DNA from: Brachycybe producta
Taxonomy: Eukaryota > Arthropoda > Diplopoda > Playtdesmida > Andrognathidae
Assembly (NCBI GenBank): GCA_036925085.1
Contig: JAUPFP010000051.1
Coordinates: 959,001-1,023,000, forward strand
Length of the DNA stretch: 64,000 nucleotides
Direction: 5' to 3'
This document shows positions 11,054 through 31,066 of this stretch, piece by piece. The notes below the pieces were generated by a model that had not been told where the DNA came from, made no database searches, and saw only the letters and a program-made list of their open reading frames with translations. The translations under genes and the position numbers were made by a program. Position 1 is the stretch's first letter, and the number at the start of each line of letters is the position of its first letter.

Positions 11054-11845
11054 TGTAACGTCCCGCCGGACCGTTACAATAACCCCAGTAAGTTCAACCC
11101 AAAAACGGAGTAAAACTTACCGCTCAACCGGCTCCTCACGGGGACGGGACTGTACCCGCAGCCGTCTCCCGCACGGTGCTCCTTGAGTTGTGTCGGCTCC
11201 AGGAGCCACGCCCGACGGACACGACAAAATACCATGCCGCCACGTCGAGAATATCGCGGTAGAACACCGGTTCTACCGCGAGCAGACACGAAGACCGGCC
11301 GAAACAAGTCGGAAAGACGGTGGTGTTGATCCCCAAACCGGACAACCCACCCTCCGCGGTACTTCCCCAAAGAAATAGACACAGACACGGCAAGTGATGA
11401 TTAAAGTGTATTTAATGGACACTTACGACGCATAAGATGAATATTGAAGGCAGTGATAATATTTACACATTGGCTGGACTCCTTGTCCAGCCAACACCCA
11501 TAAATATACAAACAAAAGGCCAGAAGGCAAAATAAACAAAAGATGAAAAGGCACTGGCCAGTGGAGGTCTACCTGACCTCCACCCACAGGTCTAGTCCCA
11601 GTTGAAGCCTACAACCAACTGCCCAGATCCTGTGGTTGACTAGGCAACAGGAAACCTCCAGGCAACTCCACCTGGAGGGGACAGAGGTCACTTCTGACCT
11701 CTCACCCATAGACTTCATGGTGAGAGGTCTGCTGGCACCAAAATGGCGTCCGTCCCAACAGCCTACTGTAGCTGTCAGGCAGACCACCATAGAGAAATTC
11801 GTCTGCTCAATCAAAATTAAAAATTGAGCAGACCAGGTTGCCACA
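11054..11845 (-). repeat. E1 5' LTR (792 bp)
   Basis: On the minus strand it starts TGTGGCAACC at 11845 and ends GACGTTACA at 11054. It is homologous to the solo LTR at 44308-45056, whose 4-bp duplication fixes the ends. A GGTAAGTTTT donor-like site lies at about 11113-11122, near the 3' end of the LTR; the related LTR at 60346-61254 has the same string near 61200. Confidence 0.92.
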
Positions 11846-11889
11846 TGTTGTTAGAAAAAATACATGTTATATGTTTTTAGCATGTAACA
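11846..11889 (-). repeat. E2 3' LTR stub (44 bp)
   Basis: It is identical to 21496-21539. It abuts the polypurine tract on one side and E1's LTR on the other. Confidence 0.9.
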
Positions 11890-11961: not shown

Positions 11962-12547
11962 TTAAAATATCTGAATGGGTTCTATCATTCTGTGCCGTTC
12001 CAATGCCCTTCGTCTTAAGTTCCTCATCTGAGTTTTACTTAAGGTTTCTTTTTGTGGTATTTGCTTTACTTTGCCTGTTTGTTGAGAAGGTGATGTCTTG
12101 CCCTTTTCTAGAAGTCTCTTTTCTTTTGAAGGTTTTGGTTTGATGAGAATTTCAGCCTTAGCAATATGAGGTCCTGTTGAGGTTTTCTCAACCTTTCTTC
12201 CTGTTATTTTTGTGCTGAATTTTTTGAATTTCTTATTAAGAATTTCCACAATTCTTTTAGTTTTTTGCTGTCTTTTTATGGCATTCACAGTAAAATTTCC
12301 AGGATATTTTTTCCCAGGAGTATCTTTTCCTGTGCACACACTTTTTAGCAATATCTAAAAACATGGGTATCCTTTTCCTTGGTAGTTTAAGCCACAGTAA
12401 GGCATCTGGTGCCTGTAACTGCTCTTCAAATGTAGCCATGTTTTTGTTAATTAATGAATACTCACAAACACTTGCACAAACACTAGAACTGGTGTATTGT
12501 TTGTTGAAGTTTAAGTTGGCACTTTTAAACTGAACTGTTTCACTCAC
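11962..12547 (-). pseudogene. E2 basic ORF downstream of env, unknown function (one frameshift)
   Basis: Two overlapping open stretches, 12547-12257 and 12351-11962, read as one small protein of about 190 residues if a single frame change near 12300 is allowed. The first part begins MSETVQFK and has a hydrophobic patch (PDALLWLKLP). The second is very basic, Lys/Arg rich, with many KK and RRR groups, and ends just before the LTR. It follows the env anchor by about 120 bases and precedes the polypurine tract, so it occupies the place of an accessory gene. I recognise no family; nucleic-acid binding is only a guess from charge. Confidence 0.5.
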
Positions 12548-12663
12548 GTGAAGATCAGTCTTTCCACATAGAATGTAAAAAAGTTTTTATGGAGCATTGG
12601 CTTCTTGAGGAGGAATGGAAGTAGGACACTTTTTTGTTAGTTTTTTCTTTTTTTACAAAAAAT

Positions 12664-14224
12664 TTATCTTTTTAAAACACTTAGTACACAAGAAAAAATA
12701 TATAGAGCTAGGACTATGACCAAAATTACAATAATGGAGGAATATAAGGTGGATCCTAATGCACCAAACATGCTATGCATTACATTAGTTATGCTTAGTA
12801 GTTCTCCAGGAAAATAACCTCCTATTGAACTAGTAATTGATCCATTGGGTTGGTTAAATACTAATGGGGATCTTCAAAACAACCTTAAAAGACTTCACAT
12901 GATGAGCCCACCTTAGAAGTAAGGCATATTTTGTCATGTATGCATTTACTATCTAATTTAAGCTGTATCATATGTTTTTCAGGGTGTGTTTTTAGAGAAA
13001 TGGTTCTAGTTGCCATCATAGTGGTGTCAAAGGTTACTTGTACTTCACCAGGTAGGCAGGTGCTATAAGCTTCTATATATATAGTGGCCATTAGGACACA
13101 TGAAAAGCAACCAGTATGCGAAATAACTTTTTCGAGTCTGGGGCATACTTTAGTGGTGTGCAATGTGTCTTTTAGGTTATTTATAGAAATTTAGACTGTT
13201 GCCGGGCTAGATGTTATTAGGGTAGAGTGTAATTTTCCGTTGGTTATTAACATTCTATGATTGGAGATTGTTAAAGGAAGTAGAGTAGGGCGTTTTTTAT
13301 TAAGTCTTCTAAATATGATGCTTGCTTATTACACGTCATTCTTTCTTCATAAAATTTACAATCAACCATTTTTGGATCAAAAATAAAGGTGCTTGCCATA
13401 GGAGATCTAGCTTGGACATCTCCAATTTGTCCTCTAAATGGGCGGTGTGGTTCAGCAGCAGTTTCAAGATAGGCCTCCAAGGGCTTATTATGCCGAACTA
13501 GCAAATGTCTTGAAATTAGATCAGTTGGCTGATCAAAGGTTCCTAATATTTCTACAAATATATCCCCAGGCAAGTGTCTTGATTTTTTAACAAAGAACAT
13601 TTCATCAGTACCATTTTTCTTTATTACAAACTTGACAGTGGGGAAACAGTCCATACTCACTACTCTTTTGACTTCGTAAGTATATAGGTAGTCAGGTTTT
13701 AGGTACCACCGAAAATGGTGACAAGGTTGAGAGTCAATTATAATACACATGCTTCCTGAATCACCTGCATAACAATTTGTGACCCCAGGCCAATCTAAGG
13801 CTTCTTTTGTTAAAGCTTCAAACTTATAATTTTCATGGCAGTGTTCACCCCAACCACAGTAAGCATTTTGAGGACATGCAACTTGGTTAATAGAATACAA
13901 CTTTGTAGGAAAAGTATAATACATTTTTTGTGTCATCCAGTCACAATTAACTGAATTAAATGTTACTTCCAGGTTTACCATATTAGTGCCCTGTGCATCA
14001 GTCAGCCATAAACAACTGGTGTATTCTAAATTTGTGAGTATTACTTGGAGTTGGGTGGATAGTTGGCATTTTTGCCCGGCCAATGTATTATGGCATTCTA
14101 CGATTTTAGATTGAATAAGCTTGTGCTCAGTACATTTAGCTATGGTACCTGAACAGCAGCTTAAGAGTATTCTCACAAATATTATAATATAAATCAGTGT
14201 TGGATGAACATGATTGGGAATACC
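12664..14224 (-). pseudogene. env: E2 envelope, Gc-like class II fusion glycoprotein part (broken)
   Basis: Downstream half of the envelope region. A hydrophobic, signal-like stretch (about 14215-14160) is followed by a Cys-rich ectodomain open from 14176 to 13271, with paired-cysteine motifs CGWGEHC and CYAGDSGSMC and a WLTDAQG strand region. The next block (about 13281-12885, one stop, another frame) has the CPRLEKV, TGCFSCVL and STCLPGEVQV pattern that resembles domain III of bunyavirus/phlebovirus Gc. A third frame gives a stem, a membrane anchor (SSIIVILVIVLALYIFSCVL) and a short KR tail ending at 12664. By cysteine pattern and order I call it Gc-like; a profile search is needed. It is not functional as it stands. 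Confidence 0.62.
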
Positions 14225-15949: not shown

Positions 15950-17233
15950 GGGAGGTGAATCAATTTCATCTTTGTAAAATGTATCCTCTTCTGTTTCTTA
16001 TTCTATGCAACTATGTGTGGTTTCATCCTTGTTTCTTGGATCAATCATGGTTGCTTCTAATTTGTTTTTTCCAGGAAATCCCAAGGTCTGTTACTTTTAG
16101 CTAGCTTAAGCCTTTCACTATGGACAATTTGTATGTCTTTTTGCTTAATTGTATGTTGTATCCTGAAATTTACTGGGGATGTCTTTTCCAATATGCGATA
16201 GGGCCCTTTACAAAGTCTGGCCAGTTTTTTTGTTTTCCCTATTCGTACTTGTGGTATATAGAGATAAACCATATCCCCTGTTTTGAAATCTTTTGATTTT
16301 CTTCCCTTTGAATGAACCTTAATTTGTCTTTCTGCTGCTTCTTCTAAAGCTTGCTTGGCAGTGTTAAAAGCTTTTTGCATTCTATGGGCTAATACCTTTC
16401 CATAATCTTCGATATTATAGACAGGTGTTGGTTCAGTGGTTAAAACATGATAAGGAAGATTCATGTCCTGACCAAATAGGAGAAAAAATGATGTTTCTTT
16501 TGTACTTGAATGTTTTGCACTACGGTATGCCATTTGGACTAGAGGTAATTCTTCATCCCTGTTGCGTTGATCATACTCGACAACATGGGAGAGCATTTTT
16601 GTTAGTGTGCCATTAAATCATTCAACTAGCTCATCTGTTTGTGGGTGATTAGCTGAAGTAAATATCTTTTTATACCCAAAAGGTCACATCCATTTTTGAT
16701 TAGTTCAGATGTAAAGTTTGTACCACGATCAGTTAAAAGTTCTTGACAACATCCGTATCTGGAAAAAAAATTCTTTTACAAGAACTTCAGCAATTGTTTC
16801 AGCTTTTTGGTCAGGGATGGCAAATGCTTCGGGATATTTTGTAAGGTAGTTACATACTATTGCAATGTACTTATTTCCCTTGTGTGAGGTTGGCAATGGT
16901 CCTAAAATGTCTAAACCTAATCGTTCAAAAGGTTTGGATGGAGGTGGAAATTTTGTTAAAGGAGTTTTGCCTAAAGGTTTCTTTTTCTCTTGGCATGAGG
17001 GACAACTTTCACAATATTTTTTAATGTCTGTTTTAACTGTTTTCCATAAGAACTGATTTCCACTCTTTGTTGAGTTTTTTCAACACCCAAATGTCCAGCA
17101 AATTTTGAGTCATGGCACATGGATAAGACATATGGTCTTTTGTGTAAGGGTACAACTAATTTAAATGAGTTCCCATCGTTTTTTACTAGCCACCCTTTTT
17201 CATTTAGTGCTAATTTTAAATTTCAGTTTCTTT
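15950..17233 (-). pseudogene. pol: E2 integrase (fragmented)
   Basis: Integrase reading is spread over several frames. The clearest block is 16596-16057, with RDEELPLVQMAYRSAKHSST and LLFGQDMNLPYHVL, then the SH3-like end (KTGDMVYLYIPQVRIGKTKK, LARLCKGPYRI). Upstream, broken pieces near 16700-16900 give core-domain strings such as LTDRGTNF. Several frameshifts and stops separate them. It would catalyse insertion of the cDNA but cannot be intact here. Confidence 0.75.
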
Positions 17234-18873
17234 TTAAACTAATTGTGAAGAAGGAAACCCTGATAAATATTTTACATAGGGTTGTATTTCAGGACAGTTG
17301 TTTTGATCTGCCATTATGTCTTTTTCTTCCCAAAAACTGTTGTTTTCTAATGAATTTACCTCTTCTAGAGGGTTTCTACTTAGAGCATCTGCATTTGTGT
17401 TTGTTTTACTTTCTCTGTATTTTATGTTGAAGTCATACTGTTGTAGTTGGAGAGCCCATCTAGTTAGCATAGCTTTGTCTTTTTTCATTGTCATTAAATA
17501 TTGTAATGGTTTGTGGTCTGTGATTAGTGTGAATTTTCTTCCCATCAGGTAATAACGAAAATAGTTGACTCCATAGACACAAACCAGTGCCTCCTTCCAT
17601 GTTGTGGACTAGTTTTGTTCTGAGGATGTCAGTTTTCTACTTGCATATGTGATTGGGTGCAAGTGTCCATCGATTTTTTGTTCTAAGATTGCTCCTATAG
17701 CTGTGTTGCTTGCATCCGTAGTGAGAAAAAATGGTTGGTTAAAATCTGGCATAGTTAATACTGGTGCTGAAGTAAGACTTTGTTTAAGCTTTACGAAACT
17801 GTTTTCACATTCATTTGTCCAAACAAACTTTGCATCTTTTTGTAATAGTTTTGTTAAAGGAGAGGAAATCTTAGCACACTTTGGAATAAATCTTCGGTAG
17901 AAATTTACAAGACCCAAAAAGCTTTGTGCTTTTTTCATATTTATAGGTCTTGGACATTTTTCAATGGCTTCAATTTTATTTGGACCAGGTTTCATTGAAC
18001 CCATTTTGAATGTGTGCTCTAAATAGGTGATTTCAATTTTTATAAAGGTACATTTTGAGGGTTTTACTTTTAAGTTAGCCTCCCTTAATTTCTCAAATAC
18101 TTGTTCAAGCCTGTTAAAGTGTTCCTCAAGTGTATTACTGTAGATGATGATATCATCCATGTAAACAAAACATATTTTGCCTTTAAATCCTTTAACACAT
18201 CATCCATGAGTCTTTGGTATACATTTGGGGAAGTTTTAAGACCCATAGGAGACCTAATAAATTCATAATGCCCTAATGTAGTGCTGAATCCTAATTTGTG
18301 TTGATCAGTTGCTTTTACTGGAATCTGGTGAAACCCACTTGCTAAATCTAATGTTGTGAAATATGTTGCATTTCCCAACTGATTACTTACACTAATAAGT
18401 TCAGGTAAATGGTATTTATCACCAATGACTTTCTGATTTAATGCTCTGAAATCTATAACTAACCTGTGACTTCCATCGGGCTTACCTACAAGCATGCAAG
18501 GGGCAGAGTACGGACTAACAGAATGCCTTATTATTTTTGCATCCAAAAGTTCTTTTATTTTATATTGTAAAATTCCTTCTTGTTTTTGTGGAACTTTGTA
18601 TGGCCTTATGTATACAGGTGCTGAATCTGTTAATTGTATTATTAATCTGTCAATCCTATTTGTAGGTTGCAACTCCTTTAAGCTACATGCAAATATGTCA
18701 AAGTACTTTGTGAGGAGATTTTTTAATTGATTTTGACATTTTAAATCAGTTTTATCTAGAACAGTTTTTACCCATTGTAGGCCCTTTTGACTTGAGAATG
18801 TGCATGGGGTTTCCTTTTTTATGGATCTGCATATTTTTCCCTTTATAGCAAATGCAATCAAGAGTAGGGCCAT
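17234..18873 (-). pseudogene. pol: E2 reverse transcriptase and RNase H (fragmented)
   Basis: RT reads in 18873-18085 (HRLVIDFRALNQ, TTLDLASGFHQIPV, SPMGLKTSPNVYQRLM), changes frame at the catalytic box, and continues in 18160-17609 with MDDIIIYSN, FLGLVNFYRRFIP and the RNase H start TTDASNTAIGAIL. A TAG at 17609 interrupts it, and 17545-17234 carries on in the same frame with FTLITDHKPLQYL and NADALSRNP. The RT style is errantivirus-like (17.6/297 type) rather than E1-like. Confidence 0.85.
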
Positions 18874-19219
18874 ATTTTAGTCCCAAATGTTTAATTGCAT
18901 TTATCCCCAAAATAATTTCATAATTTGAGGATAGATCTCTGTGACTTACATACATTATGACATTTTCTGTCTTTTGTTAATTATGTCGCAATGGAAAAAT
19001 ATAGGATCCTATTATAGGGAAGGGTTTCCCATTTGCAGCAATGATGTCAATTTTGTCTCCTTTACAAAGTTTCTTTATCCTCTGACCATACCTGTTTTTT
19101 ATAGCAACAAAGGTGGACTTAGAAATTACTGAGATAGCAGCTCCTGTATCATACAGTACCTTTACTTTTGAATTTAATATACATGCTGAAAATATTGGAC
19201 AAGTGTGATTTTCAGCCAT
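18752..19219 (-). pseudogene. pro: E2 aspartic protease (one stop)
   Basis: It opens at 19219 with the active-site motif VLYDTGAAISVISKS. A TAA at 18977-18979 interrupts it, after which the same frame reads on through YEIILGINAIKHLGL, the usual LG-I/N motif at the end of retroelement proteases. It changes frame near 18790 into RT. It lies -1 relative to the gag frame, as expected for frameshift expression. Confidence 0.8.
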
Positions 19220-19290
19220 ACTATTTAAAGTGATGCGTGGTTTGGTTTGTACTCTCCCTTTTTGACATGCTAAATTTCTAAAGGGAGTTG

Positions 19291-19746
19291 TTAGTTGCCC
19301 TGATTCTGATAATTTTGTGGTCCCCGATGTTGTTGGTTAGTTCTGGATTTTAATCTACAAACATTTGCACTGTGTCCCAGTTTGTTACAATGAAAACAAC
19401 AAAGTGGATTTTTTTGATATTTTGGGAATCTACAATCTTTGGCAAAATGTCCAATTTTGTTACAATTGAAACATGGTAAGTTATTAGATGGAATATGCTT
19501 TGTTTGATTTGGAGTAAACTTTTGGTTTGTTCTGGCTTTGTCAAGTGAAAATAACATTTTTTTATTTTCCTCTTCTAAATGTTTGATTTTTTCTTTTAAT
19601 GTTTTAACTTCCGAGCCATTTTCTGTATCTAATACATTTACTCCATATTTGGTTTGAGTAAGTTTTCCATTTTCCTCTTCAGCCAGAACAATTTCTATAG
19701 TTTCTTCCAAATTTTTTGGGTTCCTTGATAAAACAAATCTTCTCAT
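19291..19746 (-). CDS. gag: E2 Gag C-terminal part: capsid end and nucleocapsid
   Basis: The 151 residues begin RRFVLSRNPKNLEETIEIVL, which is the usual last helix of errantivirus capsid, then a coiled-coil stretch (about 45-70) and two zinc knuckles, CFNCNKIGHFAKDC (92-105) and CFHCNKLGHSANVC (117-130). The rest of capsid is missing: an in-frame TAA lies just upstream and only about 40 bases separate this from the CHHC ORF. I infer an internal gag deletion. Confidence 0.8.
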   Translation of the reverse strand: MRRFVLSRNPKNLEETIEIVLAEEENGKLTQTKYGVNVLDTENGSEVKTLKEKIKHLEEENKKMLFSLDKARTNQKFTPNQTKHIPSNNLPCFNCNKIGHFAKDCRFPKYQKNPLCCFHCNKLGHSANVCRLKSRTNQQHRGPQNYQNQGN

Positions 19747-19786
19747 TTTTGTGTAATCTTATTTAAATATAAAAAAATAATTATCT

Positions 19787-20197
19787 TTAGTTTTTTCTTG
19801 GGCGTTTATTTATTTCTGCTATATAAGCTTGTTTTTGTCTTTTAGTCATATATGCTAATTCACTTCGATTTACAAATCTCCAGTATTGGGTTTTTTCTTC
19901 TGCTTGTTTTTGTAGTTCTTCTACTTCTTTAGGTGATAATGCTTCTTTTTCCCAATTTTCTGTTTCAGTGGTATTTGTTGTATTTTGTGTTTCAATCTCT
20001 TTGTCCCAATCTTCTATTGGAGGAGGAATATAAAAGTTGTATGACTTTGTGGGTTTAATGTGTTCAGAAACTTGACAAACCGATTGTTGATTTTGTGGGC
20101 TGTAAGGACATCTCATGTAATGTGAATTGTACTTAGATTTGTTGATTACACCACATTTTTTATTCCAGGGACATAGCATTAAATGTGAATGATTCAT
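19787..20197 (-). CDS. E2 first ORF: CHHC-type zinc finger, GTSF1/Asterix-like
   Basis: Intact 136-residue ORF nearest the PBS; its ATG at 20197 is preceded in frame by a TAA. Residues 9-30 form C9-x5-C15-x10-H26-x3-C30 beginning C-P-W-N, close to the CHHC fingers of U11-48K, TRM13 and GTSF1 (C-P-[YF]-[DN]-x2-H...H-x3-C), with Cys in place of the second ligand. Residues 57-67 read IPPPIEDWDKE, and a second acidic-Trp motif ENWEKE is at 80-85. A conserved acidic tryptophan PP-x-EDWD region is what I know from GTSF1/Asterix C-termini. The C-terminal half is charged, with a Lys/Arg-rich end. It is the only intact short gene in a badly broken element. It could instead be an N-terminal piece of Gag. 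Function in the element is inference. Confidence 0.6.
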   Translation of the reverse strand: MNHSHLMLCPWNKKCGVINKSKYNSHYMRCPYSPQNQQSVCQVSEHIKPTKSYNFYIPPPIEDWDKEIETQNTTNTTETENWEKEALSPKEVEELQKQAEEKTQYWRFVNRSELAYMTKRQKQAYIAEINKRPRKN

Positions 20198-20273: not shown

Positions 20274-20291
20274 ATCCTGTCAACTGCGCCA
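20274..20291 (-). other. E2 primer-binding site
   Basis: Three bases inside the LTR the minus strand reads TGGCGCAGTTGACAGGAT. It resembles the tRNA-Ser-type sites used by Drosophila 17.6/297-type errantiviruses, as far as I recall. Confidence 0.7.
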
Positions 20292-20294
20292 TTT

Positions 20295-21539
20295 TGTTAC
20301 TTCTCCTTGAGTGACCGAAGACTTTATTATAAGGAGTAACTGTTTAACTTTAGGTTCGGTATTCGGCCAATGAAGACCATTTAAGACATACTCATGATTT
20401 CTCAATTTAATAAAAAATGTTTTTTAATGAATCAATGTTAGGATATACATGGTTTAGTCCCCAGCCTTAATATGAATATAATAATAATACAAAATGTAAA
20501 AGGTTCTAAAAGTTTCAATAAAAATACATAAAGTAATTGAAAACACAAATAAGGAAAAGAAAAAGGAAAATAAGAAAAACTAGATTTCACAGCTTACATT
20601 AAGATTTCCATGTTGAAGTTAATATGCCTTTAAATTGCAAATGCTTTTCTAAGTTTCCTCCAACACAACTGAACACAGTGGTTTTTCGGTTAGGTTGTGT
20701 TACGGCTCAGTGTAATTGTGAAAATAAACACATAGGCTTATATCCTAGGTTTGTTTACAGCCACTGAAGGCAGCACAACTAAACACAGTGGTATTCCACG
20801 GTTTGGTTTGTGTAGGAATGACCAGATGACATCAACAATCTTAGGCATACAACCTAGTAGAGCTTCAGTGGTTTTCTTTGGATTTGATGGCAAAAGCCAA
20901 AATCCCAGTGAAAGTTAAGTTCAAACTTTTACTTATTTATACCATTTTCACTTTCATTGGAACCCACTGCTCTACTGCTGATTGGTCTATTTTATTGTGT
21001 GAGGTGAATATTAAGTAGTAAATAATAAAAACAAATGTATTTTGATCTCTAGTCCTATTTTTCATAAGCAGGACCAGTGGAACAAGTTGGGCGTTTTTTA
21101 ATGAATTTTGGGGGGTGGGTGACTTTTTATTTAGTTCCCTTTAATGTGTAAATACCCCCTTTTGATGTGTGTCTGGCTATTTTAGTCAGACATACATCTA
21201 TCTTTGTTCTACTGTCCTCTTATGTTGGTAGGGGATTAAAAAGAGGGGAGACTTAAGCCTAACAAAACAAACTACAAAAATATATAAAATACTAAAAAAC
21301 CCACCACCACATCTTATTGAAAAAAACTTAAAAAAGTTTTTTGTACATAAAAAACAATATACTTCTTCTCCACCACCCTCTTAATGCTAAATCACCAAAG
21401 GTATTTTATTGTAAAATATGTCTGTCCTCTTTTTGTTATAGGCCTTTTTTATAATTGAAAATACAATTTCAAAAATAAACATTTTCAAATGTAATGTTGT
21501 TAGAAAAAATACATGTTATATGTTTTTAGCATGTAACAC
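20295..21539 (-). repeat. E2 5' LTR (1245 bp)
   Basis: On the minus strand it starts TGTTACATGC at 21539 and ends AGAAGTAACA at 20295, with inverted TGTTAC/GTAACA ends, directly before the PBS. A TATA-like GGTATAAATAAG is at about 20934-20945 and an AATAAA at about 20327-20332. Its first 44 bases recur beside the polypurine tract at 11846-11889. Confidence 0.85.
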
Positions 21540-29484: not shown

Positions 29485-29718
29485 ATGGACGACCTCGCTG
29501 CTTGGCATGGCATCCTGGAGGCCCTTAACATTGCTGCCACTGCATTGGAGTATACCAACAATGAAATGGTTGCCATATTAACCCCAGGTGGTGGGCTTTC
29601 ACTACAAGGATGCCCCTGTTGCCGCCGAATGCTGAAGGACCTATATAGACAACTAAAGAATACATGTTTGCCTAAAGAAATCGGAGAACACAGTGTAGTG
29701 ATGGTAGCCCAAAGATAA
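29485..29718 (+). CDS. E4 small ORF before protease, unknown
   Basis: The 77 residues are MDDLAAWHGILEALNIAATA at the start, a CPCCRRMLKDLYRQLKNTC segment at about 44-62, and an end that overlaps the upstream side of the protease. It may be the end of a decayed gag. The Cys pattern is not a standard zinc knuckle. Confidence 0.35.
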   Translation: MDDLAAWHGILEALNIAATALEYTNNEMVAILTPGGGLSLQGCPCCRRMLKDLYRQLKNTCLPKEIGEHSVVMVAQR

Positions 29719-30215
29719 CTCTTACTGTTAATGAGAAAGAGGTCCACATGCTTTTGGACACCGGAGCTCATGGCAGCGTTATAACTCATAGCCTAGCAAA
29801 ACGGCTCCAACTCAACATTGAGCCTATGGCTCGCCTTCCCAAAATCGAGGGGGTTGGAGGAGCCACTATTGCCATGACAGGGCAAGTCTCTGCTACTGTG
29901 GAAATTGCCAACCAATCTGCCACCGGCTGTTTGCTGGTTATCACCGGCCCACCCGACGCCATCTTGGGCCGAGACCTGGGTGGGGCACTAAGGCTCCTTG
30001 TGTCCATGCAGACTAACAAAGTCTACTTGGAAGATGACCTCTTCGAGTCCACGCTCCGAAGGCAATGTATTCAGGCGTATGTCAAGAGTGCCTTAGAAGA
30101 AATTACACCAGCCACTCTTGGGGAGATGGTCACTGCTCCCATTGACGTCTCCCCTCAAAGGGATAACACAACTCATTGGATGAGGGACAGCACTAGTGGA
30201 GGTAGAGGCCTCTAG
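29700..30215 (+). CDS. pro: E4 aspartic protease
   Basis: The catalytic motif is LLDTGAHGSVITHSLAKRL, followed by the flap-like EGVGGATIAMTGQV and the ILGRDLGGALRL motif near the end of the fold. Upstream in-frame residues (TVNEKEVHM) probably belong to it. E6 has the same ILGRDLG...MxTNKVYLEDDLF segment, which shows they are one family. After about 30190 the frame is lost and the pre-RT spacer continues at 30196-30498. Confidence 0.8.
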   Translation, partial: DGSPKITLTVNEKEVHMLLDTGAHGSVITHSLAKRLQLNIEPMARLPKIEGVGGATIAMTGQVSATVEIANQSATGCLLVITGPPDAILGRDLGGALRLLVSMQTNKVYLEDDLFESTLRRQCIQAYVKSALEEITPATLGEMVTAPIDVSPQRDNTTHWMRDSTSGGRGL

Positions 30216-31066
30216 AATCCTCACAGACCAAGACATTTTCGTGGTTGCTCCCGATGAGAAGCTACGAGCCTTGAGGGGAGTCTGTGTGGCTTCCGGTGTT
30301 ATGCAAGGCCGCAACAGCAATAGCTTCCTGGTCGAAGTCCTAAACACCACTACAAAGCCATTGACCCTTGCCTATGGTGAAGTGATAGCCCACATCCAGA
30401 AAAACTACTGCCTCGAAACAGTTGAAGTAAAAGCGACTTCAAATGCTGACCCGATATTGACAAAAGAGTCAGGCACTAAATTTGATGAGGCAATGTGACT
30501 CAGGCCTAAACTACGTAAAGGCCAGAGGCACATTCTGATGAATATTCTGAGATCATATCGAGACGTCTTTGCCTTAGAGACACCAGAACTTGGATGTACC
30601 AACCTGACCGAGCATTGCATCGACACTGGCGGTCATGCCCTTGTGCGGGAGCCCCTCCGAAGGAGCGGCCCTTAACAGCGGGAGATCATCAGAAAAACGG
30701 TTGAGGAAATGCTCGCGACTGGAGTGGCTAGCCCATCCAAGTTTCCTTATGCTTCACCGGTAGTCCTGGTGAAGAAGGACGGGCAATGGCATTTCTGCAT
30801 CAACTATAGGCGCCTGAACGACATCACCAAACCAGACAATTACCCACTACCCCGAATCGATAATGCCTTAGACTCACTTCACGGGTCGAGAATCTTTGTG
30901 ACCCTCGACATGATCTCAGGCTACTGGCAATTTGAGGTCACCAAGGATGACGGAAAAGACAGCATTCATCACACCTAGGGGCTGTTTGAATTTAACTGAA
31001 TGCCCTTCGGTCTGCGTAATGCTCCTGCTGGATTCCTGCATGAAATGCAAATTGGGGATCCAGGTG
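30196..31066 (+). pseudogene. pol: E4 pre-RT spacer and truncated reverse transcriptase
   Basis: 30196-30498 is the spacer before RT; it ends in a stop, and the reading resumes with HCIDTGGHALVREPLRRSGP (about 30614-30675), a TAA, then 30709-30978 (SPSKFPYASPVVLVKKDGQW, NYRRLNDITKPDNYPLPR, TLDMISGYWQF). After another shift it reads MPFGLRNAPAGFLHEMQI up to about 31050 and stops being RT. The YxDD box, the rest of RT and RNase H are absent. Confidence 0.8.

Follow-up and report, generated by a model that had tools for sequence, protein, structure and literature searches.

A GTSF1-like reading frame ahead of gag in an LTR retroelement of the millipede Brachycybe producta

Introduction

GTSF1/Asterix is a CHHC zinc-finger cofactor of PIWI. 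Its finger motif has been given as CPx4Hx9Hx3C, and its first finger (ZnF1) binds tRNA (PMC9539491). In mouse GTSF1, W98, W107 and W112 bind PIWI while basic residues of ZnF1 bind RNA (PMC9385479), and in Bombyx Gtsf1L both W99 and D100 are required for binding to the extended Tudor (eTudor) domain of Vreteno, with W99 also enhancing Ago3 binding (PMC10711660). Many genes of the PIWI-interacting RNA (piRNA) pathway are fast-evolving, and a review of 2018 put forward, as speculation, that mimics encoded by transposons drive this, naming none in the parts consulted (PMC6367137). Here we describe open reading frame 0 (ORF0), a short gene in a long terminal repeat (LTR) retroelement of Brachycybe producta. 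It lies in a window of 64,000 nucleotides (nt), by which we mean the whole stretch analysed (assembly GCA_036925085.1, contig JAUPFP010000051.1, positions 959,001 to 1,023,000). We read ORF0 as a divergent, one-finger relative of GTSF1.

Genes upstream of gag have been described in other LTR elements. In the MDG1 group of Drosophila, the small ORF sORF1 encodes a product that localises to a subnuclear compartment, and sORF2 has been proposed to aid cell-to-cell transfer (PMC11952523). In some insect errantiviruses, a short exon that codes for a peptide lies upstream of gag and is used in env splicing (PMC12992720). Troyka elements are a different group and have no env (PMC12440569).

Results

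The window copy of ORF0 is an intact frame of 136 codons on the minus strand, with its ATG 76 nt beyond the primer-binding site (PBS), and carries C9, C15, H26, C30 and the stretch P58-D65 just as a sequence-only reading of the window had first noted (Table 1). The same reading called it the sole intact short gene of a decayed element; ORF0 is indeed intact, but longer open stretches remain in gag (155 codons), reverse transcriptase (263) and env (317), all of them parts of broken or truncated genes. The openness of this single copy is weak evidence on its own, because with random substitutions alone its frame would survive 5% divergence with a probability of about 0.21.

A six-frame search of the species' own genome (295 Mb in 442 contigs) returned 51 ORF0 matches at E<=10, nine of which contain no stop and count as full-length, running from residue 1 to at least residue 133. 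The mitochondrial COI of this genome reads by genetic code 5, with AGA as Ser at a conserved site, ATA as Met and AAA as Lys; this points to a protostome, and the COI is arthropod-like. We retrieved 30 loci, with L014-L019 judged by BLAST and match rows only, and sorted them into five subfamilies, A to E, a grouping of our own. The window copy groups with L002-L004 in subfamily A and is 43-46% identical to subfamily B in an alignment of nine sequences. Our ORF0 alignments took 9 and 10 of the 30 loci, picked for an open frame, and include partial sequences (subfamily E copy L030 is cut at residue 104, L024 lacks the ATG and L012 lacks part of the N-terminus). In the subfamily E copies that were read (L026, L027 and L030), ORF0 is broken. 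L006 and L007 are 99.6% identical across 3.4 kb, and subfamily B1 has therefore been mobile recently. At one locus (L028), ORF0 continues to about residue 100 and is followed in frame by unrelated sequence, giving an open frame of 490 codons.

ORF0 is very probably homologous to GTSF1, a conclusion borne mainly by subfamily B and drawn from PDB sequence search, fold search and, with host as well as foreign GTSF1, shuffle tests. Using phmmer, mouse GTSF1 was the sole PDB sequence match of the window protein (E 0.023) and likewise of its sister copy L006 (E 1.3e-5), and GTSF1 was matched by three of the five ORF0 copies searched. It also ranked first, weakly, in a Foldseek search with two ORF0 structure models; a VIA-align comparison covered the 13 and 14 chains top-ranked by Foldseek, so that absent rows there are not evidence of absence. 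When the window protein was compared with the host's own GTSF1, none of 1000 shuffles reached the real score.

Among ORF0 copies, conservation is found in the finger, the ExWE motif and a C-terminal block. Twelve columns are invariant in the nine-sequence alignment, among them C9, H26, C30, E80, W82 and E83. A comparison of subfamilies A/B with C/D gave identities of 0.50 for the finger, 0.51 for the ENWE block, 0.60 for the tail and 0.52 for residues 1-8, as against 0.18-0.35 for the intervening stretches and the C-terminal end. The sequence-only reading had picked out the EDWD of PPPIEDWD (residues 58-65). Among the aligned copies, however, PPPIEDWD is confined to subfamilies A and B, and the tryptophan motif common to all nine is instead the ExWE at residues 80-83 (ENWE/EDWE), with SENWE in host GTSF1, DENWD in Bombyx and DEDWD in mouse as its counterparts. 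The C-terminal block RFVNRSELAYMTKRQKQAY is matched by FRNPSTLSGMKPAQKKAF of host GTSF1, whose exons were joined by eye.

In the window, the finger reads CPx4C-x10-Hx3C (C-x5-C-x10-H-x3-C), and in subfamily B CPx4H-x10-Hx3C (C-x5-H-x10-H-x3-C). The window copy departs from the canonical C-x5-H-x9-H-x3-C. Basic residues in the ORF0 finger include K19 in eight of nine copies (N19-K20 in the window), R or K at position 29 in all nine, and K22 in the window copy and L006 with S22 in the others, their placement relative to ZnF1 having been made by eye. The ORF0 alignment contains no second C/H set, unlike GTSF1 with its two tandem CHHC fingers. Scores for the finger alone favoured ZnF1 in 22 of 30 comparisons, with two ties and six for the second finger (ZnF2); comparisons with the host protein make up four of the latter.

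Several results weigh against homology. The Pfam family PF05253 (zf-U11-48K, CHHC) matched none of nine ORF0s at E<=1 and host GTSF1 at 6.9e-15, a search with the nine-sequence ORF0 profile reached only E 0.28, and an hhalign comparison of the two families was confined to the finger (probability 18%, P 0.0014). A reverse search of the genome with mouse GTSF1 found the host gene and no element copy, and the PDB sequence search gave no GTSF1 match for L009 and L010. The structure models are of modest confidence, with predicted template-modelling scores (pTM) of 0.26-0.27. The tail lies on exons 4-5 of host GTSF1, and these were joined by eye once the similarity had been noticed; when they are left out, the window score is reached by 3 of 500 shuffles. 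Cysteine replaces the first histidine of the finger in seven of the nine aligned copies (the window and subfamilies C-E), and the best phmmer stretch falls on ZnF2 and the tail of mouse GTSF1 while the finger-only scores mostly favour ZnF1, so that either finger may be the one retained. Separately, protein-database searches with ORF0 (2 candidates) and with its profile (1003 candidates) gave none at E<=1, and none of 31 pattern matches in a scan of viral contigs was confirmed.

The expectation of a profile match and a zinc site had a mixed outcome, Pfam speaking against it and both the PDB search and the fold search in favour of GTSF1. What stands of the initial proposal is a GTSF1/Asterix-like protein in an LTR element, separate from Gag and next to the PBS, backed by PDB, fold and shuffle tests; it has a single recognisable finger and lies outside Pfam detection.

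We considered that ORF0 might align as the N-terminus of an ordinary Gag, and this is ruled out by related copies in which it is separate from Gag. Four subfamilies have an open ORF0 and, downstream of it, a Gag that has an ATG of its own and includes the capsid region; the gap measures 32 nt (B1), 35 nt (B2), 33 nt (C) or 52 nt (D). The B1 distance was taken from L007, since the frame of L006 has a stop further up, and L030, with its truncated ORF0, was left out of the distances. Gag and ORF0 share a reading frame in C but not in B1, B2 or D. L003, in which ORF0 is broken, carries the Gag N-terminus that is missing from the window copy. In the overlapping loci L025 and L029, the gag frame has a long tandem repeat of a short GNYSGQ-type unit behind the CCHC knuckles.

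Comparison between subfamilies (Nei-Gojobori) showed that ORF0 is retained as a protein under purifying selection, yet evolves faster than gag. For B1-B2 the proportions of synonymous (pS) and nonsynonymous (pN) differences were 0.59 and 0.15, giving a ratio of nonsynonymous to synonymous substitution rates (dN/dS) of 0.14. Other ratios were 0.19-0.21 for C-D, 0.21-0.23 for C-E, 0.23-0.26 for A-C, 0.35 for A-B1 and 0.20-0.29 for the other B-C and B-D pairs. Where computable, between-subfamily ratios ran from 0.14 to 0.42 with pN well below pS; they are rough, because dS is near or past saturation in many pairs. Gag was tighter in like comparison (0.09 for both B1-B2 and C-D), and it follows that ORF0 is the faster-evolving of the two. 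Against constraint stand the ratios of 0.40-0.42 for A-D, A-E and B2-E, and the closest pairs, which show none (C-C 1.7; D-D zero synonymous changes) on very few changes. Taken together, we regard ORF0 as almost certainly a selected accessory gene.

ORF0 belongs to a larger group of elements; Gag of L009 alone has at least 151 matches in the genome. In a gag tree, one branch (support 99/98) splits eight ORF0-bearing rows from 14 others. The tree does not fix the side on which ORF0 was gained, because it is midpoint-rooted and 11 of its 22 rows cover under a quarter of the columns. Among 16 five-prime regions read on the side without ORF0, eight have arrays of small ORFs (listed if at least 55 codons from the first ATG) and eight do not, L072 and L074 of the latter being unclear. 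Such arrays lie between PBS and gag in sister elements (five-prime regions of L064-L069, L075 and L079; L050-L063), several of which have many near-identical copies. Up to nine small ORFs precede gag (L067). A CPx4C..CxxH motif is present in most array ORFs; it occurs in all eight of L069 and is absent from three of the nine in L067. In L065, L066 and L068, the first long ORF has a CPWNxxC...HxxxC finger, and a scan of ten sister-element ORFs gave no Pfam match above cutoff. The element group thus often bears small cysteine-rich genes before gag, of which ORF0 is the one with a traceable host relative. Two array ORFs without a finger (L068:3637-4068 and L067:3847-4125) carry ERDWD, which recalls the acidic tryptophan motif of GTSF1; they look as if GTSF1-like halves had been split over separate ORFs.

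The elements use two PBS types. One, TGGCGTCGTGAACAGGAT, matches a single host tRNA-Ser(CGA) gene, and the other, TGGCGCAGTCGACAGGAT, matches the 3' end of 23 exact sites in the genome, which we read as probable tRNA-Ser genes; two clusters on C4 hold 19 of these sites. L070-L073, L076 and L078 have no ORF of this kind, yet use the same two PBS types.

The window element is of Ty3/gypsy type and spans 21538 to 11845 on the minus strand; its truncated gag and broken pol and env were read as separate pieces. It has the errantivirus-like order LTR, PBS, gag, pol, env, with only a remnant of the 3' LTR. The errantivirus label itself was rejected on the type of its Env, which is Phlebovirus_G2 rather than baculovirus F-type. 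Downstream of env, at 11962-12586 on the minus strand, two basic ORF pieces overlap. They contain MATFEEQLQAPDALLWLKLPRKRIP and LSKTQMRNLRRRALERHRMI, respectively; neither has a Pfam match at E<=1, and they are possibly a broken 3' accessory gene. A second, unrelated LTR-type pol, also broken, was recognised by eye at about 29700-31000 on the plus strand from its DTGA protease and reverse transcriptase motifs.

Table 1. Features of the ORF0-bearing element, in window positions
Feature	Position	Strand	Remarks
5' LTR, TGTTAC...GTAACA	20295..21538	-	about 1.24 kb
Primer-binding site	20274..20291	-	one mismatch against TGGCGCAGTCGACAGGAT of related copies
ORF0, GTSF1-like accessory gene	19787..20197	-	136 codons and stop; ATG at 20197, stop at 19787
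Zinc-finger block of ORF0 (C9, C15, H26, C30)	20108..20173	-	residues 9-30
PPPIEDWD of ORF0, first ExWD motif	20003..20026	-	residues 58-65
ENWE of ORF0	19949..19960	-	residues 80-83
C-terminal block of ORF0, RFVNRSELAYMTKRQKQAY	19823..19879	-	residues 107-125
Gag, C-terminal part	19291..19758	-	two CCHC knuckles; window copy lacks the N-terminal part of gag
Protease region (VLYDTGA)	18977..19336	-	Pfam matches below cutoffs
Reverse transcriptase / RNase H, broken	17609..18876	-	two overlapping pieces searched apart
Integrase, broken	16057..17079	-	pieces searched apart
Env piece with Phlebovirus_G2 fusion domain	13271..14224	-	PF07245, E 3.8e-21; only Pfam match at E<=1
Env C-terminal piece, hydrophobic	12664..12873	-	probably membrane-spanning segment; span read by eye
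3' LTR remnant	11845..11889	-	first 45 nt only; 100% identical to 5' LTR start

Discussion

Interference with piRNA silencing would be the likeliest role of ORF0. An animal GTSF1/Asterix gene may have been taken up long ago by an LTR retroelement and kept between the primer site and gag, where its protein would be produced from genomic RNA as the first long ORF. This protein may bind PIWI, an extended-Tudor scaffold or both through its tryptophan motif, and RNA through its finger. Being an incomplete GTSF1, it could tie up these partners while giving no support to cleavage or silencing; such a decoy of the host protein would blunt piRNA-directed cleavage or silencing of the element. As a whole, the explanation of ORF0 as a GTSF1-derived accessory gene acting in this way is the best we have, and we hold it to be about evenly balanced between right and wrong; for the decoy function taken by itself, the balance is even or tips slightly towards wrong. 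More tentative is the wider proposal in which ORF0 would be a mimic competing with host GTSF1, a captured GTSF1 cut down to one finger and a PIWI/Tudor-binding tail, and the sister arrays would be a broader anti-silencing kit between primer site and gag.

A GTSF1-derived ORF0 could instead be an address label: by binding extended-Tudor proteins in germ granules, it would direct the element's RNA or particles to the germline and leave silencing unblocked. The Trp/Asp motif of Bombyx Gtsf1L binds the Vreteno eTudor domain (PMC10711660), the ORF0 residues E80, W82 and E83 are invariant in all nine aligned copies, and the element carries env and may therefore move between cells; we nevertheless consider this role unlikely. 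Quite unlikely, in our view, is a role in replication, in which the finger would bind the primer tRNA or leader RNA and aid primer placement, packaging or reverse transcription. ORF0 adjoins the primer site, one of the two PBS types is matched by a host tRNA-Ser(CGA) gene, and the finger scores favour ZnF1, the tRNA-binding finger of GTSF1 (PMC9539491). However, sister elements without such an ORF share both PBS types, so ORF0 is not needed for priming, and a replication helper would leave the tryptophan motif and tail without a role.

It is improbable that ORF0 is the clade's own small cysteine-rich accessory protein, with a GTSF1 likeness that arose by convergence on a short finger and an acidic tryptophan motif. 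Convergence fits poorly with the sole PDB match of L006 at E 1.3e-5 and with the two separate regions that resemble host GTSF1, and the array ORFs gave no consistent GTSF1 similarity in the shuffle tests. Survival of ORF0 by chance and without function, for which the single-copy openness probability given above might speak, is hardly credible and was rejected on pN well below pS between subfamilies, with nine of 51 genome matches full-length and stop-free. The findings suggest that the element may imitate a host defence protein to weaken silencing, and a selected, retroelement-encoded GTSF1 relative is a concrete protein with which the transposon-mimic idea can be tested.

Among known systems, GTSF1/Asterix itself shares with ORF0 a CP-x4-[H/C]...H-x3-C finger, an acidic tryptophan motif (ENWE/EDWD) and, in the host's own GTSF1, the C-terminal block. 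Unlike GTSF1, ORF0 resides on an LTR element, has one recognisable finger in place of two, lies below Pfam detection, has a spacing of x10 rather than x9 and carries cysteine for the first histidine in seven of nine copies. The MDG1-group retrotransposons likewise have small accessory ORFs with low dN/dS upstream of gag and are, by analogy, a positional precedent; their sORF1 is, however, predicted to be a helix-turn-helix protein and sORF2 a FAST-like membrane protein, and the sections of that study drawn on here describe no kinship to piRNA factors (PMC11952523). TART-A resembles the present case in having taken up a piece of a host gene of the piRNA pathway, nxf2, as a proposed counter-defence, but its action has been proposed to proceed via antisense piRNAs from a 3' untranslated region piece, whereas ORF0 is protein-coding and under protein-level selection (PMC7785250). 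Insect endogenous retroviruses and errantiviruses are also LTR elements with gag, pol and env; they differ in having a baculovirus F-type Env where ours is of Phlebovirus_G2 type, and the portions consulted of their description mention no GTSF1-like ORF (PMC12992720). Within open-licence PubMed Central full text, consulted in part and with subscription journals largely outside it, we found no report of a GTSF1-like gene in a retroelement. By our own comparison, the sister arrays suggest that some invertebrate LTR elements match complex retroviruses in their wealth of accessory genes, with the difference that these lie ahead of gag. Both accessory ORFs in that position and the capture of host genes are known kinds; what appears to be new is that a retroelement encodes a relative of a piRNA cofactor.
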